From: an uncultured Candidatus Competibacteraceae bacterium
Lineage (GTDB): Bacteria > Pseudomonadota > Gammaproteobacteria > Competibacterales > Competibacteraceae
Assembly (NCBI GenBank): GCA_903879705.1
Contig: CAIRMO010000055.1
Coordinates: 1-64,000, forward strand
Length of the DNA: 64,000 nucleotides
Direction: 5' to 3'
Of this stretch, positions 11,115-44,883 are shown one piece after another. The notes beneath the pieces are model-generated. The model saw nothing but the letters and a program-made list of their open reading frames with translations, was not told where the DNA came from and ran no database searches. Each line of letters starts with the position of its first letter. Positions within the stretch are counted from its first letter, which is position 1. The translations under genes were made by a program, and so were the position numbers.

Positions 11115-11143
11115 CGGTAACCCTGATTTTGGAGATTAACTCG

Positions 11144-11620: not shown

Positions 11621-11630
11621 TGCCTAACGG

Positions 11631-14323: not shown

Positions 14324-14329
14324 ATCGAC

Positions 14330-22537: not shown

Positions 22538-22544
22538 AAACCGC

Positions 22545-22572
22545 CGTCATTCCCGCGGATGCGGGTATGACG
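22545..22572. repeat. R2 palindromic repeat between rmlD and gspE
   Basis: CGTCATTCCCGC (22545-22556), loop GGAT, then GCGGGTATGACG (22561-22572), with a single mismatch. It belongs to the family seen at 16811-16842 and 26041-26112. The 98-bp rmlD-gspE gap also holds a short tandem of TTTAACC-like units (about 22604-22633) just before the gspE start. Confidence 0.65.
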
Positions 22573-22635
22573 AAATTAATAATCGCCGGCGAAAACCCGG
22601 AACTTTTAACCTCTAACCTTACAACCTTTAACCCA

Positions 22636-25554: not shown

Positions 25555-25576
25555 AGATTAAAGGTTAAAAATCAAG

Positions 25577-26005
25577 ATGAAACAACATGTTCCTCGCCGC
25601 TTGCGCGGTTTTACCCTGATCGAATTGCTGGTGGTGCTGGTCATTCTGGGCCTGCTGGCCGGGCTGGTTGGGCCGCAGGTGATCAAGTACCTGGGTGGCG
25701 CTAATACCAAGGTCGCCAAGCTGCAAATTGAGGATTTCAGCACCGCGCTGGATGCTTTCCGGCTCGACATGGGGCGCTATCCCACGACGAGCGAAGGCTT
25801 GCAGGCGCTGGTCGTCCAACCCTCTAACGCGAACCGCTGGAATGGCCCCTATCTGCGTAAAAACACCATCCCCAAAGATCCGTGGGGGAATGATTACCAG
25901 TATCGCTCCCCTGGTCAGCATGGGGCGTTTGATCTCCATTCGCTGGGCGCTGACAACACTGACGGCGGCGAGGGCGAGAATCAGGATGTGGTGAGCTGGC
26001 TGTGA
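25577..26005 (+). CDS. gspG: Type II secretion major pseudopilin GspG (cluster 2)
   Basis: Second GspG in the window, 142 residues. The leader is short and basic (MKQHVPRRLRG). The cleavage motif G-FTLIELLVVLVILGLLAGL has Glu5. The C-terminal part has YPTTSEGLQAL, DPWGNDYQYRSPGQHG and HSLGADNTDGGEG, the calcium-site pattern. It resembles the cluster 1 GspG but differs enough (no long leader, different loops) to be an independent set rather than a recent duplication. A long R2 repeat follows. Confidence 0.95.
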   Translation: MKQHVPRRLRGFTLIELLVVLVILGLLAGLVGPQVIKYLGGANTKVAKLQIEDFSTALDAFRLDMGRYPTTSEGLQALVVQPSNANRWNGPYLRKNTIPKDPWGNDYQYRSPGQHGAFDLHSLGADNTDGGEGENQDVVSWL

Positions 26006-26040
26006 TCAGGATGAAAATAAGAAACAGGGCGTTCACTTTC

Positions 26041-26112
26041 CGTCATTCCCGCGTCAGCGGGAATCCAGTCACCCGCTGAAAACGCTGGATACCTGCATTC
26101 GCGGGTATGACG
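26041..26112. repeat. R2 composite palindromic repeat between gspG and gspH
   Basis: Long form of the R2 family: CGTCATTCCCGC-GTCA-GCGGGAATCCAG at the left and CTGGATACCTGCATTCGCGGG-TATGACG at the right. Nested arms CCCGC/GCGGG and ATCCAG/CTGGAT are visible. The 121-bp gap between gspG and gspH in an otherwise packed operon is made by this element. It may set different mRNA stability for the abundant GspG and the minor pseudopilins. Confidence 0.7.
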
Positions 26113-26126
26113 AAAAAGGCAGGCCA

Positions 26127-26645
26127 GTGAAAGTTCTGAGAAACTCAGAAATGATTAACTTAATGTGGACGGGACAGCAGACTTTGACAGGACGGTCGCA
26201 ACGCGGTTTTACCCTGCTGGAAATGCTGGTGGCCCTGGTGATTGGCGTCTTGCTGGTCACGCTGGTTCCGCCGCTGCTGTCCGGGCTGAGCGGCGGAACT
26301 GAGTTGCGCAGTGCAGCGCGGCAACTGGCCGCTGGTTTGCGCAGCGCCCGCAACCAGGCCGTCTCCCGCCAGCAGGAAGCCGTGCTGACGCTCGATCTGG
26401 CCCAGCGCCGGTTTGGTGTCAGCGGCGACCCCCGTATCGTCGCTTTGCCGGACAGCGTGGCGGTTAAGCTCTTCACCGCCCAGTCGGAACTGCTGGATCA
26501 AACCACCGGCAATATCCGCTTCTTCCCGGACGGCAGCTCTACTGGCGGCGCAATCACCGTCAGCGGTCCGAAGCTCGCCTACCGGGTGAATATCGACTGG
26601 TTAACCGGAGCCGTTGCCATCGTCGAACAGGATGTTCAGCCATGA
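26127..26645 (+). CDS. gspH: Type II secretion minor pseudopilin GspH (cluster 2)
   Basis: Minor pseudopilin of up to 172 residues with cleavage motif G-FTLLEMLVALVIGVLLVTL and Glu5. The GspH/FimT pattern RSAARQLAAGLRSARNQAVS follows the helix, and RRFGVSGDPRIVALPDSV matches the globular domain. The GTG at 26127 gives a leader of 27 residues. ATG 26151 or ATG 26163 would shorten it, and I cannot decide between them. It overlaps gspI by 4 bp. Confidence 0.88.
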   Translation: MKVLRNSEMINLMWTGQQTLTGRSQRGFTLLEMLVALVIGVLLVTLVPPLLSGLSGGTELRSAARQLAAGLRSARNQAVSRQQEAVLTLDLAQRRFGVSGDPRIVALPDSVAVKLFTAQSELLDQTTGNIRFFPDGSSTGGAITVSGPKLAYRVNIDWLTGAVAIVEQDVQP

Positions 26646-27058
26646 TCCTCTGCCGTCGCCAACGCGGCTTTTCCCTGCTGGAAGTGCTGGTCGCTTTCGC
26701 CATCCTCAGCGTCTCGCTGGGCGTATTGCTGCAAGTATTCGCGACCGGCTTGCGCAATGTGGGCTTGTCCGATGATTACAGCCAGGCGACGCTCTACGCG
26801 CAATCCATTCTCGCCGCGATGGGCCGTGAAACACCGCTCAGCGAAGGCGTCCGCTCCGGGCCAGTCAATGATCGGCTGTCTTGGCGCAGTACGGTCAGCG
26901 CCTACGTCGAGGGGCTGCCGGATCCCGAAAAAAGCCGGGTTCGGGCCTATCGGGTCAGCGTCGAGGTGTACTGGCCGGGTCTGGTTCAGAACCGTTCAGT
27001 CACGCTGGAAACGCTGCGGCTGGCTGCGGTTGAGCCGCCGCAGGGAACGCCCCAGTGA
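26642..27058 (+). CDS. gspI: Type II secretion minor pseudopilin GspI (cluster 2)
   Basis: Minor pseudopilin of 138 residues, leader MILCRRQRG, cleavage motif G-FSLLEVLVAFAILSVSLGV with Glu5. The C-terminal domain is short, with a segment VEVYWPGLVQNRSVTLETLR. Starts inside the end of gspH (4 bp overlap) and overlaps gspJ by 4 bp. Order and size fit GspI; the WVALNQ motif seen in cluster 1 is not conserved here. Confidence 0.82.
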   Translation: MILCRRQRGFSLLEVLVAFAILSVSLGVLLQVFATGLRNVGLSDDYSQATLYAQSILAAMGRETPLSEGVRSGPVNDRLSWRSTVSAYVEGLPDPEKSRVRAYRVSVEVYWPGLVQNRSVTLETLRLAAVEPPQGTPQ

Positions 27059-27723
27059 ACGCGACATTCGGCTTCTCACCTCAGCGGCAGACGGGGTTTA
27101 CCCTGATCGAGCTGGTGATCGCCATGACCCTGATGGGGTTGACGCTGGTGGCGCTGTACAGCGGCCTGCGGCTGGGGTTGAACAGTTGGGATAGCGGCGA
27201 ACAACGCGCCGAGGCCGTCAACCACTTGCGCGCCGCCCAGGAGTTTCTGCGCCGCCAACTGGCGCAATCGATGACGGTCTACCAGACCAACGATCAACAG
27301 GAGCAAACCGTGGTATTCGTCGGCGGGCCAGACCGCATCGAGTTCATTGCGCCGATGCTGACCCATCTGGACCAGGGCGGCTTGTACCGGATTCGGGTTG
27401 AAACCGGAGACGGTCGGTTGTGGCTGCGCTGGCGGAAGTATGTGCGCGCTGATCCCGAAGCCGGCGAGCAGCAGGAAACCGTGCTGCTGAACAAGGTGTC
27501 GGCGGTGGAGTGGGCCTACTTCGGATCGGAGCCGGATGATCCGACGGGGCAAAAACCGCAGAATCCGCCGAGCTGGCGCTCCGAGTGGACGATAGCCGGG
27601 CAGCGGCCGTTGTTGGTGCGGCTAAATCTGAATCTGGGCGGCCAGCCGTGGCCGGATTTGGTGGCGTCCCTGGTTGAAGGACCACAACGGTCGTCCTTGG
27701 GCGTCACAGTACAAGGACTTTGA
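27055..27723 (+). CDS. gspJ: Type II secretion minor pseudopilin GspJ (cluster 2)
   Basis: Minor pseudopilin of 222 residues. The leader is about 16 residues, then G-FTLIELVIAMTLMGLTLVA with Glu5. After the helix comes RAAQEFLRRQLAQSM, typical of GspJ-like proteins of this T2SS subtype. It overlaps gspI by 4 bp and ends 8 bp before the preferred gspK start. By position and size it is GspJ. The globular domain is divergent from the cluster 1 protein. Confidence 0.85.
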   Translation: MNATFGFSPQRQTGFTLIELVIAMTLMGLTLVALYSGLRLGLNSWDSGEQRAEAVNHLRAAQEFLRRQLAQSMTVYQTNDQQEQTVVFVGGPDRIEFIAPMLTHLDQGGLYRIRVETGDGRLWLRWRKYVRADPEAGEQQETVLLNKVSAVEWAYFGSEPDDPTGQKPQNPPSWRSEWTIAGQRPLLVRLNLNLGGQPWPDLVASLVEGPQRSSLGVTVQGL

Positions 27724-27731
27724 GGAAGAAC

Positions 27732-28616
27732 GTGGGACTTCGTCGACCGCGAGCTGATCAACCCGGCATGGCGCTGGTGATCGTGCTGTGGATGACCGCC
27801 CTGCTGGCCGTCATGGCCGGCAGCTTTGCCTATTCCATGCGGATCGAAACCCGGCTGGCGGTCAGCATGGTGGAGCGGGTGCAGGCCCAGGAATTAGCCG
27901 AGGCCGGAGTGGCCTATGCGCTGGCTTGGCAACTGGATCCGGAGGCCCGGAAACAATGGCCGCCAAACGGCGATGAGCGCGTCTGGTCATTTGGCGTTGG
28001 ACAATTGCGGATTCAGGTCGTAGACGCCAGCGGCCTGATCAATCTCAATACCGCTGACGCCGAGTTGCTCAAGAAATTGCTGACGGCGGCGGGCGTGGCG
28101 AGCGGGGATCAGGATCGGCTGGCGGAGGCCATCCTGGAGCAGCGCAACCCGGATGAACGACAACGGTTAGGGGCAAAACCATCCGCCGCAGGTTTTAGCC
28201 CCCGGTTGCGCCCGGCCGGGTTTGAAAGTATTGAGGATTTGCAGCAGGTTCCGGGCATGACCCCGGCGATTTACGCCCGGATCGCCAGCCTGATGACCGT
28301 ATTTTCCCAGCATCGCGGTGTTAATCCGGGGCTGGCACCGGCCCGGGTGCTGCTGGCGCTGGGGATGGACGAACGGGCGGTCGCTGATTATGTCCAAAGC
28401 CGCGCCCGCGCCGCGGCGGACGGATTGCCGCCGCCGCCCGTGGCCATCGATCAAGGTCAATTCGTTTCCTTTCAGATGAACGCGAATGTTTATCATGTCC
28501 GGGTCATTGCAGAGACGGCGACTGGCGCAACCGCGCTGGTGGAAGCGGTTATCGATAACCAAAGGACGAACCTCGGTAAACTGCCACGCGGGTTGATGTG
28601 GCGCGATGGACGCTGA
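27732..28616 (+). CDS. gspK: Type II secretion minor pseudopilin GspK (cluster 2)
   Basis: Tip pseudopilin of about 294 residues. GTG 27732 is preferred: GAGG at 27722-27725 lies 6 bp upstream. TTG 27720 is an alternative. The hydrophobic segment GMALVIVLWMTALLAVMAG lacks Glu5, as expected for GspK. The helix-hairpin region INLNTADAELLKKLL and a second FESIEDLQQVPGMTP are the conserved GspK domains. Unlike cluster 1 GspK, it has no Pro/Lys-rich insertion. Confidence 0.88.
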   Translation: MGLRRPRADQPGMALVIVLWMTALLAVMAGSFAYSMRIETRLAVSMVERVQAQELAEAGVAYALAWQLDPEARKQWPPNGDERVWSFGVGQLRIQVVDASGLINLNTADAELLKKLLTAAGVASGDQDRLAEAILEQRNPDERQRLGAKPSAAGFSPRLRPAGFESIEDLQQVPGMTPAIYARIASLMTVFSQHRGVNPGLAPARVLLALGMDERAVADYVQSRARAAADGLPPPPVAIDQGQFVSFQMNANVYHVRVIAETATGATALVEAVIDNQRTNLGKLPRGLMWRDGR

Positions 28617-28648
28617 GGATCAAATGCCCGTTGTGGCCTGGAGGTGGA

Positions 28649-29755
28649 ATGTGCGCTCAGCAGGATTGTTCTGATATGGCGGCGATGCCGTTGGATTTGA
28701 AGATGAACCCGCGCCTGGATTGGCGCACGGCGTGGCGTTGGTGGCGGGAGGGTCTGCTGGCCTGGCTGCCGCGGCGGATGCACCGCTGGCTGGCGGGTTC
28801 GTCGCGGCGGCTGGTCATCCGGGTCGATGAGGGTGGCTATGCGCTGGTGCGTGAAGCCGCCGGGCAAGCGCCGCAGGAGTTGGATCGGCTGGATCGGTTA
28901 TCTCCGGACTGGAGCGGATTGGCCCGGCGGTTCAGAGCCGAGCAAACCCGCCAGTTGGTGTTGCGGGTTCCCGCTGACCACGCCCTGATTCGCACCCTGC
29001 CGCTACCCTTGGCTGCCGAGAAGAATCTGCGTCAGGTCATGGGGTTCGAGATGGACCGGTTGACGCCTTTTGCCGCCGCCCAGGTGTATTACGACGTGAT
29101 CGTGCTGGAGCGCCAAGTCGAGCAGCGCCGGTTGCGGGTCGAACTGACGGCGTTGCCGCGGACTGCCGTCGAGTCGGTGCTGGCCCAGTTACGGCAACAG
29201 GGTTTCTCGCCGGATGTGCTGGATGTGGCGGGCCGGCGACCCGAGTTAAACCTGTTGCCGCTGGAGCAACGCCCGCGCCGGGGAGTGTGGGCAAAACGGA
29301 TACGGACGATCGTGATCGCGGTCGCCGTGCTGCTGATCGGAGCCGCGGCGTTGTTACCGATCTGGCAGCAACGGCTGCTGGCGATAGAGGTCACGACCCG
29401 GATTGACCCGGTCCAGAAAGCGGCAAACCAAGCGCTGGTCTTGCGCGATCAGCTGGATCGCGCCCTGGAAGCCTCCAACATATTGTCCCATAAGAAACAA
29501 ACCCTTCCGCCGCAGGTGGATGTGTTGCGGGAACTGACCCTCATTTTACCAAATGACACCTGGCTGGAACGCTTGCAGATTAAGGGAGATAGCTTGCAGA
29601 TTATCGGCCAGTCCGCCAAGGCGTCGGCGCTGATCAGGCTCATCGAGGCTTCGCCACTGTTTAGCAGTGCGACCTTCATGTCGCCGGTGACGACTGATCC
29701 GCGCACCAACAAGGAACGGTTCGTGTTGGGTGCCCGGATCAGCAAGGAACCCTAA
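28649..29755 (+). CDS. gspL: GspL-like protein with PilN domain (cluster 2)
   Basis: About 368 residues from ATG 28649 (GGAGG at 28640-28644 just upstream). ATG 28676 and ATG 28703 are possible later starts. The N-terminal half resembles a GspL/PilM-type actin-like domain (RLVIRVDEGGYALV, then TLPLPLAAEKNLRQVMGFEM). A transmembrane helix follows at about residues 220-240 (TIVIAVAVLLIGAAALLP). The C-terminal part carries a PilN-like domain (DVLRELTLILPNDTWLERL). It overlaps the next gene by 1 bp. Position and layout say it replaces GspL in this system. Confidence 0.8.
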   Translation: MCAQQDCSDMAAMPLDLKMNPRLDWRTAWRWWREGLLAWLPRRMHRWLAGSSRRLVIRVDEGGYALVREAAGQAPQELDRLDRLSPDWSGLARRFRAEQTRQLVLRVPADHALIRTLPLPLAAEKNLRQVMGFEMDRLTPFAAAQVYYDVIVLERQVEQRRLRVELTALPRTAVESVLAQLRQQGFSPDVLDVAGRRPELNLLPLEQRPRRGVWAKRIRTIVIAVAVLLIGAAALLPIWQQRLLAIEVTTRIDPVQKAANQALVLRDQLDRALEASNILSHKKQTLPPQVDVLRELTLILPNDTWLERLQIKGDSLQIIGQSAKASALIRLIEASPLFSSATFMSPVTTDPRTNKERFVLGARISKEP

Positions 29756-30357
29756 TGGTCGCTGTAGCTGAATCGGGTTGGGGGCAACGACTGACGGCGC
29801 TGATGCTGCTGGCGCTCTTGGTGGGTGGTGTGCTGTATCTGGTGGTCGATCAGGGCCTGTTGGCCCGCTATCGCCACTATCGGGAATTTCTGGAACAACA
29901 GCAAGCCCGGCTGCAACAGGTAAACCGAATCGCCGCGAGCCGCGATCCGATTCAGCAACTGATGACTAAAATCGGCCAGGATCAGGGCATTACCGCCCAA
30001 TATCTGCCACAGTCCGCGCCAGCGCTGGCGGCGGCCGAATTGCAGCAGCGCATCCGGTCGGTGGTCGAGGCCGCGGGCGGAACCCTGCGCAGCACTCAGG
30101 CCTTGCCGCCGGTCGAGGAAGGCCATACGGTGAAAGTAGCCGTCAGCGTTACGCTGACCGGCGATACCGATAATCTGCAAAAAATTCTTTACGATCTGGA
30201 GGGACAGACACCCTTGTTATTTGTGGATAATCTGGAAGTCTCGGCGCGGGAGAACCGCCAGCGCCTGCCGGGCGGCCGAATGGCGACCTACACGCGCATC
30301 CAGTTGAGTGTCCAGTTCGAGGTTTACGGTTATCTGCGCAAGAAGGAGGGTGGCTAG
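29755..30357 (+). CDS. gspM: GspM-like protein, subtype b (cluster 2)
   Basis: A 200-residue bitopic protein: one transmembrane helix at about residues 10-30, a coiled region rich in Gln/Arg, and a C-terminal ferredoxin-like fold region (HTVKVAVSVTLTGDTDNLQ, ILYDLEGQTPLLFVDNLEV). This fits the GspM 'subtype b'/PilO-like family rather than the classical GspM of cluster 1. It follows the GspL-like gene with 1 bp overlap and touches the next gene. It probably pairs with the GspL-like protein. Confidence 0.82.
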   Translation: MVAVAESGWGQRLTALMLLALLVGGVLYLVVDQGLLARYRHYREFLEQQQARLQQVNRIAASRDPIQQLMTKIGQDQGITAQYLPQSAPALAAAELQQRIRSVVEAAGGTLRSTQALPPVEEGHTVKVAVSVTLTGDTDNLQKILYDLEGQTPLLFVDNLEVSARENRQRLPGGRMATYTRIQLSVQFEVYGYLRKKEGG

Positions 30358-30984
30358 TTGACGGCCCGGACGGCAGGTCTGCTGCTATGGCTGCTGATTG
30401 GCGGGTTGGCAAGCAGCGCGGTGTTCTGGCAACTGAAGCACCCGCCACAGCCGCCGGTCCTGCCCGCTGCAACGGGTGCGCGGCCACCAGAGTTGCCGGC
30501 GCTGACTCCCGTGAAACCCTTTCGGCTGCCGCCGCCAGCGCGTTATGCCAGCATTACTGCCCGCCCGGTGTTTATCGCGGCCCGCCAGCCCGAACCGCCG
30601 CCGCCCCCCGATGAAATTACGCCGCCGCAACCTCTTCCGGCCAGTCCAGAACCGACGCCGCCAACCCTGATGGGGGTGATGATTATGCCGCAGGGGCAGG
30701 TGGCGCTATTGCGGCCCGAAGAACCGAACGCCAAAACGGCGCGGGCCAAGGTGGGCGATAGGGTCGGAGAATGGCTGCTTGAGGCGATTTTTCCCAACCG
30801 GGTGGTGTTGAGCAAGGGGTCGGTGAAACAAGAACTGGCGCTGGTTCGAACCAAAAAGCCGGTCGGATCGAGTACCGGGAAACGAAATGGCCCCAGGCCA
30901 GCACCGGTTGCTGCCCCGCCAGACGCGCTGCTGCAACCCGTTCCACCACCGCTGTTCACTGTCCCCGGTCTGCCGCAACAATGA
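30358..30984 (+). CDS. GspC/GspN-like periplasmic homology-region protein (cluster 2)
   Basis: A 208-residue protein with a TTG start directly after the gspM stop. It has one N-terminal transmembrane helix (about residues 5-25) and a long Pro-rich linker. A domain at about residues 95-160 (LMGVMIMPQGQVALL, KVGDRVGEWLLEAIFPNRVV) resembles the HR domain of GspC, which binds the secretin N0 domain. The tail after residue 165 is again Pro-rich. It is often annotated GspN in such clusters. I think it takes the GspC role, bridging the inner-membrane platform and GspD; this is inference from domain order. Confidence 0.65.
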   Translation: MTARTAGLLLWLLIGGLASSAVFWQLKHPPQPPVLPAATGARPPELPALTPVKPFRLPPPARYASITARPVFIAARQPEPPPPPDEITPPQPLPASPEPTPPTLMGVMIMPQGQVALLRPEEPNAKTARAKVGDRVGEWLLEAIFPNRVVLSKGSVKQELALVRTKKPVGSSTGKRNGPRPAPVAAPPDALLQPVPPPLFTVPGLPQQ

Positions 30985-31006
30985 ATGCAACAAGGCTCGC
31001 TATTTT

Positions 31007-33337
31007 ATGAACAAGATGCTGTCCCTGTCCGCCGCTGGTATGGCCTTAGCGGTATTGCTGAGCGCGTGTGCAACGCCGCCGCCCTCCGAAGAAACTATCC
31101 AGCAAACCACGCCCGTCAGTGCTTCGCCGGTCGCTGGATCGCTGCGCCTGACGGCAAAGCCCCTATCGGCTACCGACCGATCCGGGGCCAGTGCGGAGGT
31201 GAAAGAAGCGTCCAGAACCACAACTATTCTGCCGGGGACTGGCGATTTCATCGACCTGAAAGCTGCCGTCAAGCCGTCTCCGACCCGGATCAAGGCCACG
31301 CCGGGTGAAGTCACTCTCAACTTTGAGGGCGCTGATATCCGTGACGTTGCCAAGGTGGTATTCGACACCCTCAAGGAAAACTACACGGTTGACCCGCTGG
31401 TGCAGGGCGAGGTCACGGTGCAAACCAGCCAGCCGTTGACGCCCAATCAGTTATTGCCAACCTTGGAAACCCTGCTGCGGATGAACAATGCGGTGCTGGT
31501 ACACGAGGGCAATCTGTACAAGATTCTGCCGGGGGCCGGCGCGGTCAAGCAGGGCAACCTGACGCCGCGATTGGGCAGCTCCGGCGGTGGTTACAGTGTG
31601 CGAATTGTGCCGCTGCGCTATATCAGCGCCACCGAAATGCAGTCGATCATCGCGCCGTTGCTGCCGGATGGGGCGGTGCTGCGCGCCGATGTTGCCCGCA
31701 ACCTGCTGATGTTGGCCGGTACGCCACAGGAGCTGGCCAACATTCAGACCACCATCGACACCTTTGATGTGAACTGGCTCAAGGGCATGTCGGTCGGGAT
31801 GTTCCGGCTGCGCAATATCGACAGCCAGGCGATGGCGACCAACCTGAACCAGGTGCTGGGTGAAGGCTCCGGGACGCCCATCGCTGGTTTGCTCCGGTTT
31901 GTGCCGCTTAGCAAAATGAATGCGGTGCTGGTGATTACCCCACAGAAAGAATACCTGCGAGAGGTTGCGGTCTGGATCGAGCGGCTGGACGGGGTTGGCG
32001 GCGAGCGGCTGTATGTCTATCACGTCCAGAACAGCCGGGCTGAATACCTTGCCGATTTGCTGAATGGTCTATTTAACTTGGGCAGTGGCGGCAGCAGCGG
32101 GCGCGGCGGCGAAGTGGCGCCGGGCTTAAAACCGGCTGAGGCGTCCAGCGGTATGTCTTCTGGCGGAGGTCTCTCCTCTGGCGGAGGTGTGTCCTCGAGC
32201 GGTGGCTTGTCCTCTGGCGGAGGTGCGTCCCCGGGTGGTTCCTCATCATCCGCTGGTTCCTCTTCTGCTTCGGGCAGTCGTTCCAGCAGTCGGGCTGGCG
32301 CCGCTACGGCAGGCAGCAGCGGCGGCGGCGGGCCGAGCGCCGGGATGGAGGAAGTCCGGATCGTCGCTGATATTGAAAACAACGCGCTGTTGATTTGGGC
32401 GACCAACCAGAACCATGAGCGGATTGTCAGCACCCTGGAAAAAATGGATGTCCCCCCCCGGCAGGTGCTGATTGAAGCGACGATCGCCGAGGTGACCCTG
32501 ACCGGCAAATTGTCGTATGGTGTGCAATGGTATTTCAATAACGATCTGGGTCAGGACTATACGGGAAACGGATTTTTCGGCCTCACCAGTGGCAACACCC
32601 CATTGAACGGAACAACAACGACCGATGGCAAAGTGACCACAGTGACCAAAGGATTGGCGATTGCGGCTGACAAGTTTACCTACGTCATCACTGGCGGTAA
32701 TACCGTGAAGGCGTTGCTCAGCGCGCTGGCCAGCGATGGCAAGGTCAGGGTCTTGTCAGCGCCGCATGTGATGGCGCTGGACAGCCAACAGGCGCAGATC
32801 CGGGTGGGTACTCAACAACCGACTCCATCCGGCACTTCCACCGTGAACAATGTGACCACCAGCGGTGGAGTCACTTACAAGGATACCGGGGTGTTTCTGA
32901 AGGTATTGCCCCGAATCAATTCCGGGGGCATGGTCAACATGGACATCTTGCAGGAGGTGATCGATGTGGGGCCGCTGGTGGATGTGAGTTCCGGTTCCGT
33001 GAGTTCCTCCGGGGAGTCGGTGGCGCTGAAACAGCGCGCCTATTTACAGCGGAGCGTAAACAGCAAGGTGGCGGTGAGGAGCGGCCAGACCGTGGTGCTG
33101 GGCGGTCTCATCCGCGATAACCGCGCTGAGGGTGAGAGCGGTGTGCCGGTGTTGTACAAGATTCCGGTGCTGGGGGCGCTGTTCGGCAATACTGCAGAGG
33201 AGGTAGAACGTACCGAACTGATCGTCTTGATCACGCCCCGGGTGGTGGAGGATAGCCAAGAGGCCGCGCAGGTCACTGATGAGATCAAGCGCAAGATGCA
33301 GGGATTGGCGCCGATGCTGCCGCCGCCAGCGGGTTGA
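31007..33337 (+). CDS. gspD: Type II secretion secretin GspD (cluster 2)
   Basis: Outer-membrane secretin, 776 residues from ATG 31007. The start gives a lipoprotein signal peptide ending LLSAC-ATPP. N0/N1-N3 domains are visible (GEVTLNFEGADIRDVAKVVF, VTVQTSQPLTPNQLLPTLE, VRIVPLRYISATEMQ). They are followed by the secretin core (RVLSAPHVMALDSQQAQIRV, VVLGGLIRDNRAEGESGVPV, TELIVLITPRVV). A Ser/Gly-rich linker at about residues 365-445 contains an 18-bp tandem repeat, here within N3. The lipobox may allow self-piloting without a pilotin. A GT41 gene follows after 24 bp. Confidence 0.95.
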   Translation: MNKMLSLSAAGMALAVLLSACATPPPSEETIQQTTPVSASPVAGSLRLTAKPLSATDRSGASAEVKEASRTTTILPGTGDFIDLKAAVKPSPTRIKATPGEVTLNFEGADIRDVAKVVFDTLKENYTVDPLVQGEVTVQTSQPLTPNQLLPTLETLLRMNNAVLVHEGNLYKILPGAGAVKQGNLTPRLGSSGGGYSVRIVPLRYISATEMQSIIAPLLPDGAVLRADVARNLLMLAGTPQELANIQTTIDTFDVNWLKGMSVGMFRLRNIDSQAMATNLNQVLGEGSGTPIAGLLRFVPLSKMNAVLVITPQKEYLREVAVWIERLDGVGGERLYVYHVQNSRAEYLADLLNGLFNLGSGGSSGRGGEVAPGLKPAEASSGMSSGGGLSSGGGVSSSGGLSSGGGASPGGSSSSAGSSSASGSRSSSRAGAATAGSSGGGGPSAGMEEVRIVADIENNALLIWATNQNHERIVSTLEKMDVPPRQVLIEATIAEVTLTGKLSYGVQWYFNNDLGQDYTGNGFFGLTSGNTPLNGTTTTDGKVTTVTKGLAIAADKFTYVITGGNTVKALLSALASDGKVRVLSAPHVMALDSQQAQIRVGTQQPTPSGTSTVNNVTTSGGVTYKDTGVFLKVLPRINSGGMVNMDILQEVIDVGPLVDVSSGSVSSSGESVALKQRAYLQRSVNSKVAVRSGQTVVLGGLIRDNRAEGESGVPVLYKIPVLGALFGNTAEEVERTELIVLITPRVVEDSQEAAQVTDEIKRKMQGLAPMLPPPAG
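32156..32227 (+). repeat. 18-bp tandem repeat encoding SSGGGx in gspD
   Basis: Four tandem 18-bp units (32156-32173, 32174-32191, 32192-32209, 32210-32227), three of them differing from TCCTCTGGCGGAGGT plus three variable bases by at most one base. They encode SSGGGL, SSGGGV, SSSGGL and SSGGGA. The repeat is the core of a longer Ser/Gly-rich linker (to about 32340). The unit is a multiple of three, so changes in copy number would keep the reading frame. Confidence 0.85.
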
Positions 33338-33361
33338 GAACGACCAGGACAGGAGTAGACG

Positions 33362-35572
33362 ATGCAACCAGAAGCACAAGCCGCACTGCGCCGGGTGTGG
33401 TTGAAGCAGGAACAAGCCCGCTTTCAACAGCGCAGCCAGAATCACCCTGACGATGCCCAGGTCTGGCGGCAATTGGCGCGGAACTGCTGGGAATTGGACG
33501 AAATTGAGCCGGCTTTGGCGGCGCTTGACCGGGTTTTGACGCTGCAACCCGACGATGGTGAGGGGTTATTAGGCCGGATCGTCACCTGTCTGGCGCTTAA
33601 TCGGAATGAGGAGGCGCTGGCGGCAGCGCTGCGGTTATTGAGGTTATTTCCCGACCACGTCGATGCGCGCTTGCAGCAGATTGAGGCGCTGCGCCGATTG
33701 GGGCGGTCAGCCGAGGCGCTGACGGTTGGTGACGAGCTACTGGCGTTGCCCGGCCTCGCTCCGGCAACGCGGTGTTCAGCGCTTACAGTCAAGGTGGTGC
33801 TGCTGGGCGGTTTTAACCAGAACGAGAAGGCCTTGGCGGTTGCCAAGGAAGGACTGGCGTTAGTGCCGAATGATCCGATGCTGGGCTTGCATCGCGCTAC
33901 GCTACAGGCGCGGCTGGGGCAATTCCCCGAAGCGCTGGCGGGAATTGACGCGCTGATCGCCGCGCCGGAAACCCGGTTTGGTGCGTTGTGCGTCAAGGCC
34001 CGGGCGCTGGCGGCGTTGCGGCGGTTTGATGAAGCCGATGCGATCCTGGTTGATCTCCAGGAACATTCTCCGCATCCGTCACTGGAGGCGATGTTCGAAC
34101 CCCGGCGGTTGCCGGGCGAGACCTTGCCGGACAGTTTGCCCAAGCGCTACACGGCACGCGGGTTATATCTGATCGATTTTTTCAATGCCCGCGCCAACTG
34201 CGACTGGAGCGAGTGGGCGGCGGTGCTGGCAAATATCGATGATTTGACCGCTGACGCCTTGCGCTATGGCTTCGTGGCGGGGATCGAACCGTTTAGTTTA
34301 TTGACCCTGCCGATTACGCCCGCCCGGCAAGCGGCAGTAGCACGCGCCCAGGCTACAGCGGTGGCGGCGCACATGGCGCCGATCCGGGAAACTCTGCACA
34401 TCGAATGGCCGACGGTGCTGAATCATGGCCGGTTACGGATTGGCTATGTCTCCGGCGATTTTCGCAATCACGCCACTGCGCACTTGGCCCGCAAGCTGTT
34501 TCGGACCCATGACCGAAGCCGGTTTGAGATTGTTGGGTTCAGTCTGCGTCCTGATGATGGCAGCGAATATCGGCGCGATAGTGCTGCGGGTTGCGACCGG
34601 TTTGTGGAACTGTTTGGGCTGAGCAACGCGGAAGCGGCGGTGCGCATTACCCAGGAGGAAATTCACATTCTGGTGGATATGCACGGCTACACCCGGTTTG
34701 CCCGGCCAGAGATTTTTGCGTTGCAGCCCGCACCCGTGCAAGTCAGTTTCCTCGGCTATCCGGGTACGCTCGGCGCGGCCTGTGTGCCGTATATCATCGC
34801 CGACCAGGTGGTGCTGCCGGACGAGTTGCGGCCCTGGTTCAGTGAGCAGCCGGTTTATCTGCCGGATTGTTATCAGGTGAACGACGATGAACAACCCATA
34901 GCGGCAACCGGCGTCACCCGGGCCGAGGTCGGGTTGCCGGAAAATCAGTTCGTTTTTTGCTGCTTCAACCATTTCCGGAAGATTGATCCGGAAACTTTTA
35001 GGGTGTGGATGCGGATTCTGGATCAGGTTCCAGGCAGCGTTCTTTGGTTGCAGGCCGACAGTGTGCAGGGCATGGATCGGTTGCGCCGGGAGGCAGGGGC
35101 GCGTGGTGTGGATCCAGCGCGGCTCATGTTTGCGCCGTACCTGCCTAAAGCGCTGCACCTGGAACGGCTGCGGCTGGCGGACCTGTTTTTGGATACTTTC
35201 GTTTATAACGCCCATACAACAGCCAGCGATGCGCTGTGGGTAGATCTGCCGATCGTGACGTTGCGCGGCGGATCTTTTCAGTCGCGGGTTTGCGCAAGTC
35301 TGTTAGGCACACTGGGATTGCCGGAGCTGATTACCGATCACAGCGCGGCGTTCGAGGTATTGGCGGTGGCCTTAGCGCATGATCCGGAGCGATTGCAGGG
35401 GTTGCGGGCGCGATTGCGGGCGCGGCGGTTGATGGAGCCGCTGTTTGATACGGCGCGTTTCGTTCGGGGCTTGGAGCGGTCGTTCTGGTTGCTGTGGGAT
35501 TGCTATCATGCGAACCGGCAACCTGAACCGCTTTATCTTCAAAAGGATAGCGATTTTGGCCCGGTCGTTTGA
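33362..35572 (+). CDS. GT41 family (O-GlcNAc-transferase-like) glycosyltransferase with TPR repeats
   Basis: A 736-residue protein. Residues 1 to about 240 are tetratricopeptide repeats (for example QNHPDDAQVWRQLARNCWEL, LAALDRVLTLQPDDGEGLLG). The C-terminal half is a GT41/SPINDLY catalytic domain. Its signatures include RIGYVSGDFRNHATAHL, DMHGYTRFARPEIFALQPAPV, QVSFLGYPGTLGA, FVFCCFNHFRKIDPETF and YNAHTTASDALWVDLPIVTL. Eukaryotic OGT transfers GlcNAc to Ser/Thr of proteins, and some bacterial members modify adhesins or flagellins. It starts 24 bp after gspD and is the last gene of cluster 2. No signal peptide, so it acts in the cytoplasm. Acceptor and sugar donor are unknown. Confidence 0.9.
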   Translation: MQPEAQAALRRVWLKQEQARFQQRSQNHPDDAQVWRQLARNCWELDEIEPALAALDRVLTLQPDDGEGLLGRIVTCLALNRNEEALAAALRLLRLFPDHVDARLQQIEALRRLGRSAEALTVGDELLALPGLAPATRCSALTVKVVLLGGFNQNEKALAVAKEGLALVPNDPMLGLHRATLQARLGQFPEALAGIDALIAAPETRFGALCVKARALAALRRFDEADAILVDLQEHSPHPSLEAMFEPRRLPGETLPDSLPKRYTARGLYLIDFFNARANCDWSEWAAVLANIDDLTADALRYGFVAGIEPFSLLTLPITPARQAAVARAQATAVAAHMAPIRETLHIEWPTVLNHGRLRIGYVSGDFRNHATAHLARKLFRTHDRSRFEIVGFSLRPDDGSEYRRDSAAGCDRFVELFGLSNAEAAVRITQEEIHILVDMHGYTRFARPEIFALQPAPVQVSFLGYPGTLGAACVPYIIADQVVLPDELRPWFSEQPVYLPDCYQVNDDEQPIAATGVTRAEVGLPENQFVFCCFNHFRKIDPETFRVWMRILDQVPGSVLWLQADSVQGMDRLRREAGARGVDPARLMFAPYLPKALHLERLRLADLFLDTFVYNAHTTASDALWVDLPIVTLRGGSFQSRVCASLLGTLGLPELITDHSAAFEVLAVALAHDPERLQGLRARLRARRLMEPLFDTARFVRGLERSFWLLWDCYHANRQPEPLYLQKDSDFGPVV

Positions 35573-35771: not shown

Positions 35772-35799
35772 TTGACAACAACACTTTGTTGTGTAGAAT
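35772..35799 (+). promoter_or_regulatory. Sigma-70-type promoter with internal palindrome
   Basis: TTGACA (35772-35777), 16 bp, TAGAAT (35794-35799). Between the boxes lies a perfect inverted repeat, ACAACA-CTT-TGTTGT (35778-35792), which is placed like a repressor operator. It would drive the secreted-protein gene at 35923 with a leader of about 115 nt. The rest of the 350-bp gap 35573-35922 holds no convincing gene. Confidence 0.6.
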
Positions 35800-35922: not shown

Positions 35923-37389
35923 ATGAGTTTTAAGGTGAACAAAATTGCGGCCGCTGTGGCTGTGAGTCTGGGGACTTCGGTTGTGGGCATGAATGTCGCG
36001 CAAGCCGATGCGGTGTTTTTCCCGTACTTGATCGCATCGCCTGCGGTTACGACCATTTTGTCGGTCGTCAATGAGGGACCGACAAATAGCAAGCTCCACT
36101 ATCGGTACTACTACAAGGAGGATGCCGGCAGTGCCGAGGCGAATCGTCTTTCTGGATGCACGGAAGCCGATTACCCCAACTGGACGAGCCCTAATGATGT
36201 CGTGACCTTTGATATCAGCAATGTTTTCGGGGCTCCTCGCAATGGTGTACTGTTTGAGGGGGCTACTGGCGGAAACTACGATGATTTCGCGATCTTCCGT
36301 CACAAGACAATCCGTGCCAATGCCGTTGTTGACAATGACTTTTCGGGCTTTAGCTTCGCGAAGAATGTCAACGGCGAGGCGTTCATCATCGAATTCGCGA
36401 GCGGTTCTGTCTGGGGTTATTCAGCTTATAATGCGGCTGAAATCCTGACGTACACTGGTGCCTACGTCGGTGCACCGGCGGATGCTCTGAAGTCCGTAAA
36501 TCCCGTGAATGAATTCGATTTCTCGGACCGTGTCGAGGTGAACGGTGAGGTGTTGGTAGCGGCACCAACTAACGAGAGTAAAGCGAATATAATCGAAAGG
36601 TATCGGGTGCCGATTACGATCATGCCATTCAAGGAGGTTACAACGCGCCTGTTCGTAACGCCGATTAACCCCAACAAGCCTTTCCAGGTGCCGACTGAAA
36701 AGAATCTCTATACGGCGGGTATCCGCTTGGAAGTAAACGACAACACCAGTCTGCAACAGGTGATGTTTGATCGTGACGAGAACCCGGTCTCTGGTCGGGT
36801 CACCAAGCAGGTTGTCTGCGTAGGTGCGGTTGATGTGCCTGAGTTGATCAATGAGGCCATTCGTTCGCGGGTAGCGAATGGCGGGTGGAGTAATGTTGGC
36901 ATTATTTTGGGTGGCCTTCCTGCTCCCGCTGTCGCTGTTAACCAGGCGATTGTCCTCAAGCTGGAATATGGTGTCGCGGTTCCACCGGCAACAGAAGCAG
37001 CGCTGGATGGCGTCCTTGTTGGTTCCGGTAGTTATAACAACGGCTACTGGTTGCGTAAGGGCATTCGCGAATCCGTGCCGCGCAACTTTATGATAGCTGG
37101 TTTTGGTAGTTATCCGGTACTCCCGGTATTCCTGATGCCTGAAGCGGCCCAGGACGTTAATGCGCCTTACCCGGTGATCAGCACACAGGGGGTGGATGCC
37201 TATAATGCTACTGTGGCTCTTGAAGCGCGGTTGCCATCAGGGATCAGCTACCAGGATTACGTTCCCTATTCATGGAATACTTCGTATGAGTATTACCTAG
37301 CGAATGTGGCGAATATAGCTGCTGGGCGTCACCCTGTATATGAACCCTTTAATGTCGTTGAACAGGCGTTGAAGTCAATAGCGCAGTAA
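35923..37389 (+). CDS. Secreted protein of unknown function
   Basis: A 488-residue protein. ATG 35923 is chosen because it follows TAGGAG and opens a Sec signal peptide (MSFKVNKIAAAVAVSLGTSV ... NVAQA-DAVFFPYL, cleavage near residue 28). The mature part is beta-rich with few cysteines (one in SGCTEADYP, one in VVCVGAV), suggesting one disulfide. No catalytic motif or membrane anchor is visible. I do not recognise the family. It is monocistronic: a strong promoter upstream and a clear terminator downstream, suggesting high expression. Lying after a T2SS cluster, it could be a secretion substrate or an outer-surface protein; this is inference. Confidence 0.85.
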   Translation: MSFKVNKIAAAVAVSLGTSVVGMNVAQADAVFFPYLIASPAVTTILSVVNEGPTNSKLHYRYYYKEDAGSAEANRLSGCTEADYPNWTSPNDVVTFDISNVFGAPRNGVLFEGATGGNYDDFAIFRHKTIRANAVVDNDFSGFSFAKNVNGEAFIIEFASGSVWGYSAYNAAEILTYTGAYVGAPADALKSVNPVNEFDFSDRVEVNGEVLVAAPTNESKANIIERYRVPITIMPFKEVTTRLFVTPINPNKPFQVPTEKNLYTAGIRLEVNDNTSLQQVMFDRDENPVSGRVTKQVVCVGAVDVPELINEAIRSRVANGGWSNVGIILGGLPAPAVAVNQAIVLKLEYGVAVPPATEAALDGVLVGSGSYNNGYWLRKGIRESVPRNFMIAGFGSYPVLPVFLMPEAAQDVNAPYPVISTQGVDAYNATVALEARLPSGISYQDYVPYSWNTSYEYYLANVANIAAGRHPVYEPFNVVEQALKSIAQ

Positions 37390-37413
37390 ATTAGCGCGGC
37401 CTAGGCCGGGCGG

Positions 37414-37440
37414 AAGGGCCACCTTGGGTGGCCCTTTTTT
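37414..37440 (+). terminator. Rho-independent terminator
   Basis: GGGCCACC (37416-37423), loop TTG, GGTGGCCC (37427-37434), followed by TTTTTT (37435-37440). It lies 26 bp after the stop of the secreted-protein gene and is the clearest intrinsic terminator in the window. Confidence 0.92.
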
Positions 37441-37581: not shown

Positions 37582-39351
37582 ATGACAAAATTTTTCCTCA
37601 CACTAGCGAGTGTGCTGCTGGCGGCAATTGCGCAGGCGGACGATCGTTTGAATCCCGTGGTGTTAAACCAGCACGTCCTGGACCAGTACGCGACTTGGGA
37701 TTTTGCGCTGTCTGAAAGTGGCAAACCCTGGTTTGCCTATTATGGCGTGGATAATCTGTTGTATGTGCGTCGACCGGATGGCACCGAGGTCGCGCTGGGC
37801 GCTACTGATCGGTCACGCCAGCAATCCGGGTTGGCCATAGCGCCAGTCGATGAGCGCTTGAGCCTATTCTGGCGGGACAAGCTGCCTCGTAAAAATCTGT
37901 ATTTGCTGCCCAAACTTGATCCCACCGGAGTTGCGCCGCCACCGGTCGTGGTTGGCAGTGAAGAATCCGAGCCGCTGGTCCGGATGAATCTGGCCCAAGG
38001 TGGTGGCGTCGATTACCTGCTTTGGATGGGTGAGAAGGGCGATCCAAAAAGCGGGGAGAAATACCATATTTACTTCCGCACGGTTGATCAGGACGGTAAG
38101 GCGCTATCGCCGGTGGAACAAGTCATGCCCGGCATCTACCCCGCCTGGATTGTTGCGCCGGATGTAATCCCGGTGTTTTCCTGGATGATGTACGAAGACA
38201 AGCCGGCAATGACCATGCGAGTCTTTGATCGCGCCAAAAAGAGTTTTAGCCCACTGGTGAAGATCGCCGATGCGCCTACGATTAGTCCGATTTTCGAGGC
38301 GTTTAAATCGGGCGACCGCTGGTTCCTGTTGTGGTTGGGCCATTATGGCGATAAAGGGGAACTGTTGCTGGAAGGCACCTACTCGGACGATAAAGGCCAG
38401 ACCTGGAAGCGATTCGCCATCGAGGATCTGCGTGGCCTGGATATGGGCAGCGTCAGCATCGTTAGCGACCAAAAGACTAACCTTATCATTGCGCTGTATG
38501 GCAATCGGCAGTTGATGGACCCCACTAACACCACTAACATCAAGAACAATGTCTATGTGGTGCGATCCACCGACAACGGTACGACCTGGCAGAAACCGCA
38601 GACAGTGCGTTCCGACGAACTCCGCTTGACCAAGGCGCAATATCCGGTGCTGGCGCTCGGTTCACAACCAGGGACTGTAATGCTGGCTTGGGAAGACTGG
38701 CGTGATATCCGTCCCAACGTCTATGTGAGTTATTCCAAGGACTATGGGGCAACGTGGGAACCGGCATTGCCGTTGGGTCGGCCTGGAGTTTGGAACCTGG
38801 GTCTGGATTTGCAGCCCCATTCGATGATTGGACGGGAGGACCGTTTCTCACTGATCGCCAAGCAATATAAGGACGACGCGCTGTCGGCAAATAAGGATTA
38901 CGTTCTGTATAGTTTTACTTGGGATGAAGTCAAGCGGAATGCTGCGGAATTCAAGATTTCGGAACTCCAGCGGGCGCACGCCACCGAGGCCCGGTTGCGC
39001 GAACGGGCGACGCAATACTGGCAAGCCATGCAGGATGGTCAGTACGAGATGACTTACGCCATCATGGACCCGTTCTACCGCAGTCAGCGCGATCTTAAAG
39101 CCCACCTTTCCAGCAAGGGCCGGGTGAAATATCATCGCTTTCAGGTCGGTCCGATTGTCCAGAAAGGCAATCTTGCCCGGGTTCAGATCGAAATAGAAAC
39201 TTCGGTTCCCGAGTTCAAACTGCCGGACGGCAAGATCATCAGTCAACCGGCTAAAACCGTATCATTCCTGCAAACATGGGTCTTCCTGAATGATGACTGG
39301 CATCTTGAATATTACGATGAGATGGCCGAAAAGAGTTCTACCAGTTACTAA
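37582..39351 (+). CDS. Secreted sialidase-like beta-propeller protein with Asp-boxes
   Basis: A 589-residue protein with a signal peptide (MTKFFLTLASVLLAAIAQA-DD). Three Asp-box motifs, SDDKGQTW (268), STDNGTTW (329) and SKDYGATW (385), mark a BNR/sialidase-type propeller. The catalytic arginine triad of true sialidases cannot be confirmed. After about residue 470, a separate domain (ERATQYWQAMQDGQYEMTYA) resembles an NTF2-like or SnoaL-like fold. It lies 24 bp before an ABC exporter permease gene, probably in one operon, so it may process or bind the exported polysaccharide. Exact activity is unknown. Confidence 0.75.
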   Translation: MTKFFLTLASVLLAAIAQADDRLNPVVLNQHVLDQYATWDFALSESGKPWFAYYGVDNLLYVRRPDGTEVALGATDRSRQQSGLAIAPVDERLSLFWRDKLPRKNLYLLPKLDPTGVAPPPVVVGSEESEPLVRMNLAQGGGVDYLLWMGEKGDPKSGEKYHIYFRTVDQDGKALSPVEQVMPGIYPAWIVAPDVIPVFSWMMYEDKPAMTMRVFDRAKKSFSPLVKIADAPTISPIFEAFKSGDRWFLLWLGHYGDKGELLLEGTYSDDKGQTWKRFAIEDLRGLDMGSVSIVSDQKTNLIIALYGNRQLMDPTNTTNIKNNVYVVRSTDNGTTWQKPQTVRSDELRLTKAQYPVLALGSQPGTVMLAWEDWRDIRPNVYVSYSKDYGATWEPALPLGRPGVWNLGLDLQPHSMIGREDRFSLIAKQYKDDALSANKDYVLYSFTWDEVKRNAAEFKISELQRAHATEARLRERATQYWQAMQDGQYEMTYAIMDPFYRSQRDLKAHLSSKGRVKYHRFQVGPIVQKGNLARVQIEIETSVPEFKLPDGKIISQPAKTVSFLQTWVFLNDDWHLEYYDEMAEKSSTSY

Positions 39352-39375: not shown

Positions 39376-40176
39376 ATGAAACCGATCTACCGGTTACCTG
39401 GTGCGTTGCGGCTATTCCCGCCCTTCGTAGGGCGGGAATTGCGTGAGCAATACGCCGGTTCTGTTTTGGGGGTGCTGTGGAGCGTTCTGCAACCGGTCTT
39501 GTTGATTCTTTTGTATTGGTGGGTATTCGCCACCGTCATGCAAATCCGGTTTCCAGCAAATTCTGCGCTGGCGGATACGCCATTCATCGTGTTTCTGCTA
39601 TCGACCTTGTTGCCGTGGTTCGCTTTTCAGGACAGTCTGAGCCGCGCCACGGGTGCTATTCTCAACCGGCGTGACATGGTCCGTAAGGTTCACTTTCCCG
39701 CACAGGTATTTCCCTTGGCAGCGGCGGCGGCGGCTTTTATGGTTCATTCGGGCTGTTACTTGCTGTTTCTGGTCGCTTTCGCCCTGTGGCACGGTGGGTT
39801 ACCGGTCAGTGCATGGGGGGCGGTGATCGTGTTGCTGGGCTTCCAGTTTGCCGTAACTGCCGGGTTGGGATTGCTGTTAGCGTCCTTCACTGTTTATCTG
39901 CGCGATATCCAGCAGGTGTTGAGTTTACTGCTGGCGGTCATTTTCTACACCGCGCCAATACTCTACCCGTTGTCGCAAGTACCGGCAGAATTTCACAGTC
40001 TGATTCATTTCAACCCGTTTACCATCTTCGCCGAGGCCTATCATGGTGCGGTATTAGCCGGTGTCTGGCCAGAACCGGCGGTATTGGCAGGACTGATGCT
40101 GTTTGCCATTGGTTCGCTCGTTGCAGGCGTTTATGCCTTTCGGCGGCTAGAACCGGGTTTCGCTGATGTGTTATGA
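39376..40176 (+). CDS. wzm: Polysaccharide ABC exporter, permease (Wzm-like)
   Basis: A 266-residue ABC-2 type membrane protein with six hydrophobic segments. The N-terminal motif FVGRELREQYAGSVLGVLW and the block DSLSRATGAILNRRDMVRKV are typical of O-antigen/capsule export permeases (Wzm/TagG/KpsM-like). It pairs with the ATPase gene that overlaps it by 4 bp (ATGA). The substrate is a polysaccharide assembled on undecaprenyl phosphate in the cytoplasm and flipped across the inner membrane. Confidence 0.92.
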   Translation: MKPIYRLPGALRLFPPFVGRELREQYAGSVLGVLWSVLQPVLLILLYWWVFATVMQIRFPANSALADTPFIVFLLSTLLPWFAFQDSLSRATGAILNRRDMVRKVHFPAQVFPLAAAAAAFMVHSGCYLLFLVAFALWHGGLPVSAWGAVIVLLGFQFAVTAGLGLLLASFTVYLRDIQQVLSLLLAVIFYTAPILYPLSQVPAEFHSLIHFNPFTIFAEAYHGAVLAGVWPEPAVLAGLMLFAIGSLVAGVYAFRRLEPGFADVL

Positions 40177-41339
40177 ATGAAATCAAACCGGCCCTAAGGG
40201 TCAGCGGACTGACCAAAATCTACCGCTTATATAATCACCCCATGGATCGCTTAAAAGAATTATTGTGTCGACAGCCACGCCATAGCGATTTTGTAGCGTT
40301 GCGCGACATTACTTTTGAATTGCCGCACGGACGAACGCTGGGCATCATCGGTGACAATGGCGCTGGTAAAAGTACGCTGCTGCAACTGGTCGCCGGAACG
40401 ATGACGCCTACTTGTGGGACCATTGAGCGTGATGGCGTGGTATTGGGCCTGTTGGAGTTGGGCGTTGGCTTTCACGCTGAATTCACTGGCCGGCAAAATA
40501 TCTTTCTGTATGGCGACGTTCTCGGCTTATCGCGCCGGTTAATACAAGCCGGTGTAGACGAGATCATTGCTTTTGCCGAATTGGAAGCTTTTATTGATCA
40601 GCCGCTGAAAACCTATTCCACGGGTATGCGGATGCGGTTAGCCTTTTCGTTAATCACTACGCTGGATCCGGATGTTCTGATCGTCGACGAAGCATTGTCC
40701 GTCGGCGACGTGTATTTCCAGAAGAAGTGTATTGACCGGATGCTGGAATTCAGAAATCGCGGTCGCACAATTATTTTCTGCTCCCATAGTCTTTATCAAG
40801 TCAGCGTTTTTTGTGATGAGACGATTTGGTTGCAGGCCGGCCAGATCCGGATGTACGGCGAAACCCTTCAGGTTATTCCTGCCTACGAGGCTTGGCAGGC
40901 TCAGCGCAGTGTCCAGCATGATCAGGCTGATGCTGGAGTAAACCGGGAAATTTTAGTACGCATTATCAGTATTGAGTTGCTGAATCAACAGCCTTGTTGG
41001 CGCGGAGATGACCTGCGTTTCCGGTTGCACATTGAAAGCGCCAGTTCTGATTTGCTCTTTCATGTTTCTTTTTCAATCAAGATGCAAAATGGTTACGGAG
41101 TATTTGCGACCGGTACGCATCTCATTGGTCATCCGCCATTGCAGGGTCGAGAACGTGACATACTGATTACCTATCCAAAAGTTCCGTTGATGGGAGGCAT
41201 CTATAGTGCACATGCTCGTATTTTTGATGATCAGGGCTTGATGATTTATCACGAAAAAATCCTAAATGAATTTGAAGTGAGAAAGGACTCATTGGAGTTG
41301 GGTGTTTGTCATCTGGAAAATGATTGGCAAATTGAATAA
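40173..41339 (+). CDS. wzt: Polysaccharide ABC exporter, ATPase with C-terminal binding domain (Wzt-like)
   Basis: ATP-binding subunit of 388 residues. Walker A GDNGAGKSTLL is at residues 55-65. The family-specific signature YSTGMRMRLAFSL (about 149-161) replaces LSGGQ, and LDPDVLIVDEALSVGDVYF is Walker B. Residues after about 245 form an extra domain as in Wzt, which recognises the terminal modification of its polysaccharide. The gene becomes AT-richer toward its 3' end and is followed by a 600-bp AT-rich stretch with broken coding sequence. Confidence 0.93.
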   Translation: MNEIKPALRVSGLTKIYRLYNHPMDRLKELLCRQPRHSDFVALRDITFELPHGRTLGIIGDNGAGKSTLLQLVAGTMTPTCGTIERDGVVLGLLELGVGFHAEFTGRQNIFLYGDVLGLSRRLIQAGVDEIIAFAELEAFIDQPLKTYSTGMRMRLAFSLITTLDPDVLIVDEALSVGDVYFQKKCIDRMLEFRNRGRTIIFCSHSLYQVSVFCDETIWLQAGQIRMYGETLQVIPAYEAWQAQRSVQHDQADAGVNREILVRIISIELLNQQPCWRGDDLRFRLHIESASSDLLFHVSFSIKMQNGYGVFATGTHLIGHPPLQGRERDILITYPKVPLMGGIYSAHARIFDDQGLMIYHEKILNEFEVRKDSLELGVCHLENDWQIE

Positions 41340-41532: not shown

Positions 41533-41934
41533 ATGGGTATAGAACTAGCACTCTGTGATTATTTTAGGAGACGCTTATTTGCCCGGATTTTTGATAATCC
41601 CGCTGATGTAATCGGTGGCGTTCTGAGTAAAGCCGAAATTTTGTTCCTTAATGGGGAAATTAACTTGTTCCCACTACTCGGCATCACCGCCGGCTATGCT
41701 TTAAGATGTTGGTTAATTTTCTGGCATGGATCGGTGTTGCTTTCTGGGCTGCACGCCGTTGGCAGTTTAGTAGCTCTCCGATTGGCGTAGTACTTGTCAG
41801 CATGTTTATCCTGTCTTTTTCGATAGTTGTGGTTGTGTTTTTTGCCCCGCTTTTTATCCCATATCGTTCCACTAGCCACTATCATCGCTGTCTGTTTTGC
41901 CACCGATGTTGGAGTCTCCTTCATTATAAAGTGA
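41533..41934 (+). pseudogene. Decayed small membrane-protein gene, frameshifted
   Basis: Three adjacent open stretches in two frames look like one hydrophobic protein. Frame A from 41533 has AEILFLNGEINLFPLLGITA. Frame B at 41706-41865 has MLVNFLAWIGVAFWAARRW and SMFILSFSIVVVVFFAPLF. The last stretch returns to frame A as PLATIIAVCFATDVGVSFII and ends at TGA 41932-41934. That stop overlaps the GTG start of the next gene in a GTGA pattern. At least two frameshifts are needed. The family is not recognised. The upstream part, 41340-41532, is AT-rich and holds nothing I can identify. Confidence 0.4.
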
Positions 41935-43913: not shown

Positions 43914-43916
43914 TTT

Positions 43917-44867: not shown

Positions 44868-44883
44868 CAATAACCTGGACTCA

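Follow-up and report, generated by a model that had tools for sequence, protein, structure and literature searches.

The window, by which we mean the whole stretch of 64,000 nucleotides analysed from an uncultured Candidatus Competibacteraceae bacterium, holds a glycosyltransferase gene of family GT41 directly behind the gene for a secretin, raising the question of which protein, if any, such an enzyme might decorate. The secretin gene gspD (31007–33337) is the last gene of an Xps-type type II secretion system (T2SS) operon in this Competibacteraceae genome and is followed, after a gap of 24 nt (33338–33361), by the GT41 gene (33362–35572); these and the other genes described below for 22498–46041 lie on the forward strand. 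The sequence-only reading had placed a GT41/TPR gene 24 bp behind gspD at the end of a T2SS cluster, and the coordinates, a TIGR02517 match and a PF13844 match agree with it. The conserved locus suggests that a secreted protein may receive a sugar before it is exported. The explanation we favour, though still tentatively, is that the cytoplasmic TPR-GT41 enzyme glycosylates one or more secreted proteins of the locus before their export by Sec and the T2SS.

The operon in front of gspD (22498–30984) was delineated from open reading frames, family models and a gene order kept in related loci. It comprises gspE (22498–24333), gspF (24334–25554), gspG (25577–26005), gspH (26127–26645), gspI (26642–27058), gspJ (27055–27723), gspK (27720–28616), a PilN-like L gene (28598–29755), an XpsM-type M gene (29755–30357) and a C-like gene (30358–30984). 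The GspE, GspG and GspM models scored over their cut-offs for E, G and M, and the XpsF, XpsH, XpsI, GspJ, GspK and GspC models stayed below theirs; the predicted series E-F-G-H-I-J-K-L-M-C best matches Xps-type models, several of them under the curated cut-offs. GspD itself is a lipoprotein secretin of 776 residues with the N-terminus MNKMLSLSAAGMALAVLLSAC and the lipobox LSAC. It matched TIGR02517 (E 1.7e-144, 482.6 bits, cut-off 351) as well as PF21305, PF03958 and PF00263, and its N0, N-domains and secretin domain are those of a T2SS secretin. Since another GspD of the genome, encoded on contig C145, scores better than this one, we consider the system at 22498–33337 to be a second T2SS of the genome. 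Within the window, 11111–16754 holds a second group of T2SS genes, comprising G, H, I, J, K, L, M and N but lacking E, F and D. Among named organisms, Candidatus Contendobacter odensis and further Competibacteraceae are the closest relatives, and we found no useful paper on the T2SS of Contendobacter in the open literature searched.

The GT41 protein of 736 residues has a TPR-like N-terminus (about residues 1–240) and a GT41 catalytic region (about 280–720). PF13844 (Glyco_transf_41) matched with E 1.3e-102 and 344 bits (cut-off 25), and several TPR models matched residues 21–201, among which TPR_14, TPR_19 and TPR_2 were over their cut-offs. By this TPR N-terminus the enzyme would belong to the OGT/SPY branch of GT41, not to the HMW1C branch. 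We aligned it with human OGT and with 28 relatives and paralogues (29 sequences). The catalytic and donor-site residues His370, His435, Lys540, His599, His618, Thr619 and Asp623 are present and are kept in nearly all of the 29 sequences; we take their human counterparts to be H498, H558, K842, H901, H920/T921 and D925. Two donor-site residues depart from human OGT, namely His537 for Gln839 and Tyr615 for Cys917, and Tyr615 sits at the donor-selector site, which corresponds to Tyr744 of SPINDLY. SPINDLY, a fucosyltransferase, has a tyrosine at this site, as do XcOGT and TtOGT; the residue has been proposed to exclude GlcNAc and goes with other donors or a lack of O-GlcNAc activity in these proteins (PMC9715652), whereas use of UDP-GlcNAc goes with a small residue there. 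The structures of XcOGT (Xanthomonas campestris XCC0866) and TtOGT are solved; the present enzyme resembles them in its GT41 catalytic domain, matched by sequence, and in the selector tyrosine (Y463 in XcOGT, Y419 in TtOGT). Tyr615 argues against UDP-GlcNAc as the donor, and the transferred sugar is probably not GlcNAc. The earlier description of the enzyme as O-GlcNAc-transferase-like thus holds for its GT41/TPR identity, borne out by PF13844 and the residues, but is doubtful for the donor.

The sequence-only reading had called for a survey of genomes for GT41 next to gspD and had named a lack of such adjacency in related genomes as a refutation; the adjacency proved to be conserved there. 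Among 39 genomes of the family, counting GT41 genes of this kind at E 1e-60 or better, 28 had both the GT41 and this GspD, three had the GspD only, none the GT41 only, and eight neither. The corresponding Fisher P of 2.7e-6, uncorrected for phylogeny, overstates the evidence because the genomes are related. In one of the three GspD-only genomes (G020), the contig breaks behind gspD and an orf489-BNR pair opens another contig, so its GT41 gene may simply be unassembled. The 28 loci fall into two layouts. In type A (10 genomes), the order is gspD-GT41-orf489-BNR-Wzm-Wzt as far as the contigs reach, with a gap of 21–43 nt between gspD and GT41 in eight genomes and 1–2 kb inserted there in the other two (G028, locus L102; G032, locus L104). 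A gene for a predicted secreted protein, orf489, stands behind GT41 in nine of the ten, and in the tenth the contig ends. Type B (18 genomes, 14 on one contig and four in pieces) has gspD followed by c6, which encodes a secreted protein, and by genes for an FG-GAP protein, a PpiC isomerase, a small protein and a longer GT41, with Wzm-Wzt coming next in most. The arrangement is more than chance, since the junction recurs in 8 genomes and the wider neighbourhood in all 28, within the limits of the contigs.

The two layouts are probably versions of one module, because their proteins match across them. Signal peptides are present in both orf489 and c6, whose mature proteins begin alike; in a profile comparison the N-terminal part of orf489 matched c6 with a probability of 95% and E 3e-8, the aligned part including the signal peptide. 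Likewise, the C-terminal domain of the BNR protein encoded behind orf489 is related to the small protein of type B (hhalign probability 97, E 2.8e-11). A predicted model of type-B c6 is beta-rich (pLDDT 67, pTM 0.78) and better than that of orf489, but gave no match above Z 4.5 in a structure search, so that c6 was placed in no family. The GT41s of type A form one clade and those of type B another, and both together make a supported clade. At the selector site the other type-A enzymes mostly have Val and the type-B enzymes mostly Tyr, so the donor may differ between the types.

The most constant neighbours of GT41 are orf489 and the BNR beta-propeller protein, both just 3' of it and overlooked in the sequence-only reading. 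The gene orf489 (35923–37389) is conserved 3' of GT41 and encodes a predicted secreted protein of 488 residues with an N-terminal signal peptide and low Lys/Arg content. It matched nothing in Pfam or NCBIfam. A widespread orf489 family was rejected, the sole match in 369 genomes of the class being the window's own copy, and a fold assignment was abandoned because the beta-rich, low-confidence model (mean pLDDT 51) was too poor for its Foldseek matches to have meaning. In front of the gene lies a near-consensus promoter, TTGACA-16-TAGAAT (11 of 12 positions; 35772–35799), which contains an internal palindrome ACAACA...TGTTGT, is unique in the genome even with up to 3 mismatches allowed and is kept in 9/9 loci, being more degenerate in a Chromatiaceae locus. 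A strong intrinsic terminator (37412–37438) follows, with equivalents behind 9/10 distinct orf489 genes and 15/15 type-B genes. Judged by these signals, orf489 looks like a strongly expressed single-gene unit, and a strong promoter and terminator of its own are what would be expected of an abundant cargo. Related TTGTTG/ACAACA motifs occur in type-B loci, some of which also have tandem promoter-like sites in front of c6. The relatedness of these motifs may hint at a common regulator.

Behind orf489, the BNR protein (37582–39351) has a signal peptide, a BNR/Asp-box beta-propeller (PF02012 over the cut-off, PF13088, BNR_2, just under it) and the C-terminal domain described above. An ABC exporter pair for surface polysaccharide, Wzm (39376–40176; PF01061) and Wzt (40173–41339; PF00005 and a weak Wzt_C match), is conserved behind the locus. 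Family models further identified polysaccharide genes at 41706–46041, namely a fusion of a GT4-type transferase with a PIG-L (GlcNAc de-N-acetylase) domain (41706–43913), a GNAT acetyltransferase (43917–44867) and another GT4-type transferase (44884–46041). In genome G032 (L161:3613-11517), a 2635-residue adhesin-like protein with DUF11, CshA-type and SdrD_B domains ends in an orf489-like domain, lending support to an extracellular role.

We consider orf489 the best candidate for both cargo and acceptor. The TPR region would hold the secreted protein in the cytoplasm, and the enzyme would attach one sugar to Ser/Thr residues, either ahead of Sec export or in its course, with orf489 as the first acceptor and BNR as the second, and c6 in the type-B layout. 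Folding of the modified protein would follow in the periplasm, and its way out would be the Xps-type T2SS whose gspD precedes the enzyme gene. This proposal is supported because GT41, this GspD and a secreted protein of the orf489/c6 type recur together in two layouts, and because GT41, orf489 and BNR stay together without gspD in the Chromatiaceae genome G405 (locus L035), where two GT41 genes, orf489 and BNR lie side by side. The Xps-like T2SS of G405, in which the Ser/Gly linker is weaker, is on a separate contig (L141) with no GT41 beside it, so it is the secreted protein and not gspD that GT41 accompanies there. Other GT41s are closer to the Competibacteraceae enzymes than that of G405; the link may therefore have evolved repeatedly, or the enzyme may have been replaced. 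Against orf489 or c6 as acceptor, neither is Ser/Thr-rich (Ser 4–12%, Thr 4–10%), and surface-polysaccharide genes are likewise constant neighbours. Moreover, the partnership with GT41 seems to be optional, because c6-like genes occur without GT41 in two genomes (G101 and G337) and a c6-NTF-Wzm arrangement without GT41 in a third (G174).

An enzyme with targets elsewhere in the cell offers an unlikely explanation, to which we still give some weight. It would modify unlinked cytoplasmic proteins or itself in a regulatory O-glycosylation, and its position would reflect co-regulation or chance within a cell-surface island. GT41 is indeed widespread without a T2SS neighbour. It is present in 59/369 genomes of the class, and a widespread GT41-gspD adjacency was rejected, none being found among 17 GT41 loci examined in 16 non-family genomes, with incomplete lists and some short contigs; at two of these loci the T2SS genes lie at a distance of roughly 15 kb or more. 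SPY, moreover, modifies itself (PMC9715652). However, the neighbourhood is conserved across the family, and no GT41 of this kind was found there without this GspD.

We think it distinctly unlikely that the enzyme acts not on protein but on the surface polysaccharide of the adjoining Wzm/Wzt and GT4 genes. Wzm/Wzt lies directly 3' of GT41 in nearly all type-B loci and 3' of BNR in type A, and other glycosyltransferases stand beside GT41. On the other side, TPR regions typically bind proteins, the characterised GT41s (OGT, SPY and HMW1C) act on proteins (PMC9715652), and the GT41 of G405 adjoins orf489 and BNR with no Wzm/Wzt homologue found on the piece of that genome bearing them. HMW1C, besides, is able to lengthen sugars already on its protein.

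The sequence-only reading named the Ser/Gly-rich linker of GspD, along with secreted or pseudopilin proteins, as a possible acceptor. Its description of a long linker with SSGGGx tandem repeats was accurate: the segment (32054–32374, about residues 350–456), which is N-terminal to the secretin core as judged relative to solved GspDs, is 28% Ser and 29% Gly, and the repeats (32150–32230) have a period of 18 bp and 4.5 copies. Glycosylation of this linker before Sec export could alter channel assembly or gating. The short junction in 8 genomes would fit this idea, as would the density of the family linkers, with 22–36 Ser+Gly per 40 residues against 10–19 in 18 other GspDs of the class, one of them from the same genome; this density is accordingly no general GspD trait. 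Two family genomes without GT41 are without the linker as well, but they belong to one genus and may record a single event. The linkers also vary freely in length and sequence between genomes, gspD and GT41 are separated by other genes in the 18 type-B genomes, and the GT41 of G405 is unlinked from gspD yet keeps orf489 and BNR. On this evidence the linker finds no support as preferred acceptor, and we consider it an improbable target, though still a rival one. That the gene encodes a by-stander or an inactive relative devoid of glycosyltransferase activity, as the little or no O-GlcNAc activity of XcOGT and TtOGT in tests (PMC9715652) might suggest, is very improbable given that nearly all 29 sequences keep the catalytic and donor-site residues and that the reading frame is intact in most genomes, though two relatives have one stop inside the match.

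Glycosylation of the secreted protein in the cytoplasm would have precedents in known systems. HMW1C glycosylates an adhesin that is still cytoplasmic and is afterwards secreted through Sec and across the outer membrane (PMC3983070) and, within the HMW1A/HMW1B two-partner secretion system of Haemophilus, is likewise a GT41-family enzyme encoded with a secretion system. However, HMW1C attaches N-linked hexoses to Asn, as opposed to the Ser/Thr proposed here, its N-terminus has an AAD fold where TPR models match the present enzyme, and its system is of type Vb with a TpsB pore instead of a T2SS secretin. In the window, gspD, GT41 and the gene for a predicted secreted protein adjoin, a grouping that would be comparable to that of HMW1C if orf489 is the substrate. 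FlmG of Caulobacter uses its TPR domain to bind flagellins, which it glycosylates while they are still in the cytoplasm (PMC7591256). It likewise combines an N-terminal TPR region with a C-terminal transferase and acts before export, but its substrate is flagellin, its sugar is pseudaminic acid and it has no T2SS tie. The Xps-type T2SS of Xanthomonas is alike in its gene set and in the models XpsF, XpsH, XpsI and XpsM, with XpsF, XpsH and XpsI below cut-off here; it differs in that the operon here ends in or near a GT41 gene and its GspD linker far exceeds those of the GspDs compared in Ser/Gly density.

GT41 enzymes, the Xps-type T2SS and secretion-coupled GT41 glycosylation are individually known. 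Neither the open literature searched nor the non-family loci examined showed a T2SS locus that includes both a GT41 gene and a secreted protein found across the family; no paper joining a GT41 enzyme to T2SS export was found in the open-licence literature searched. Of the dedicated, T2SS-tied glycosylation that the sequence-only reading had put forward as a new coupling, the tie of the GT41 gene to the T2SS stands (28/28), but the coupling of GT41 to secretion has its precedent in HMW1C. To our knowledge, the acceptors of most bacterial GT41 enzymes are not known, and the locus gives a short testable list: orf489 or c6, BNR and the GspD linker. If orf489 is the acceptor, the HMW1C principle of glycosylating in the cytoplasm and then exporting would reach type II secretion, and a Competibacteraceae glycoprotein could be identified. 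Little is known of the matrix proteins of wastewater granules, in which Competibacteraceae occur, and we found no useful paper on Competibacter glycoproteins in the open literature searched. It is conceivable, if doubtful, that this single locus makes, decorates and exports a main extracellular glycoprotein of granular sludge. Such a protein would belong to a new beta-rich family, be abundant at the cell surface or in the matrix, receive a sugar that is not GlcNAc from GT41 in the cytoplasm and be exported by the T2SS.

Elsewhere in the window, two genes carry short in-frame insertions resembling a dispersed repeat element. One, of 14 protein letters, lies in the valyl-tRNA synthetase gene valS (760–3555), and the other, HTPHPGPLLPRGRGA, in a membrane protein starting near 49320.
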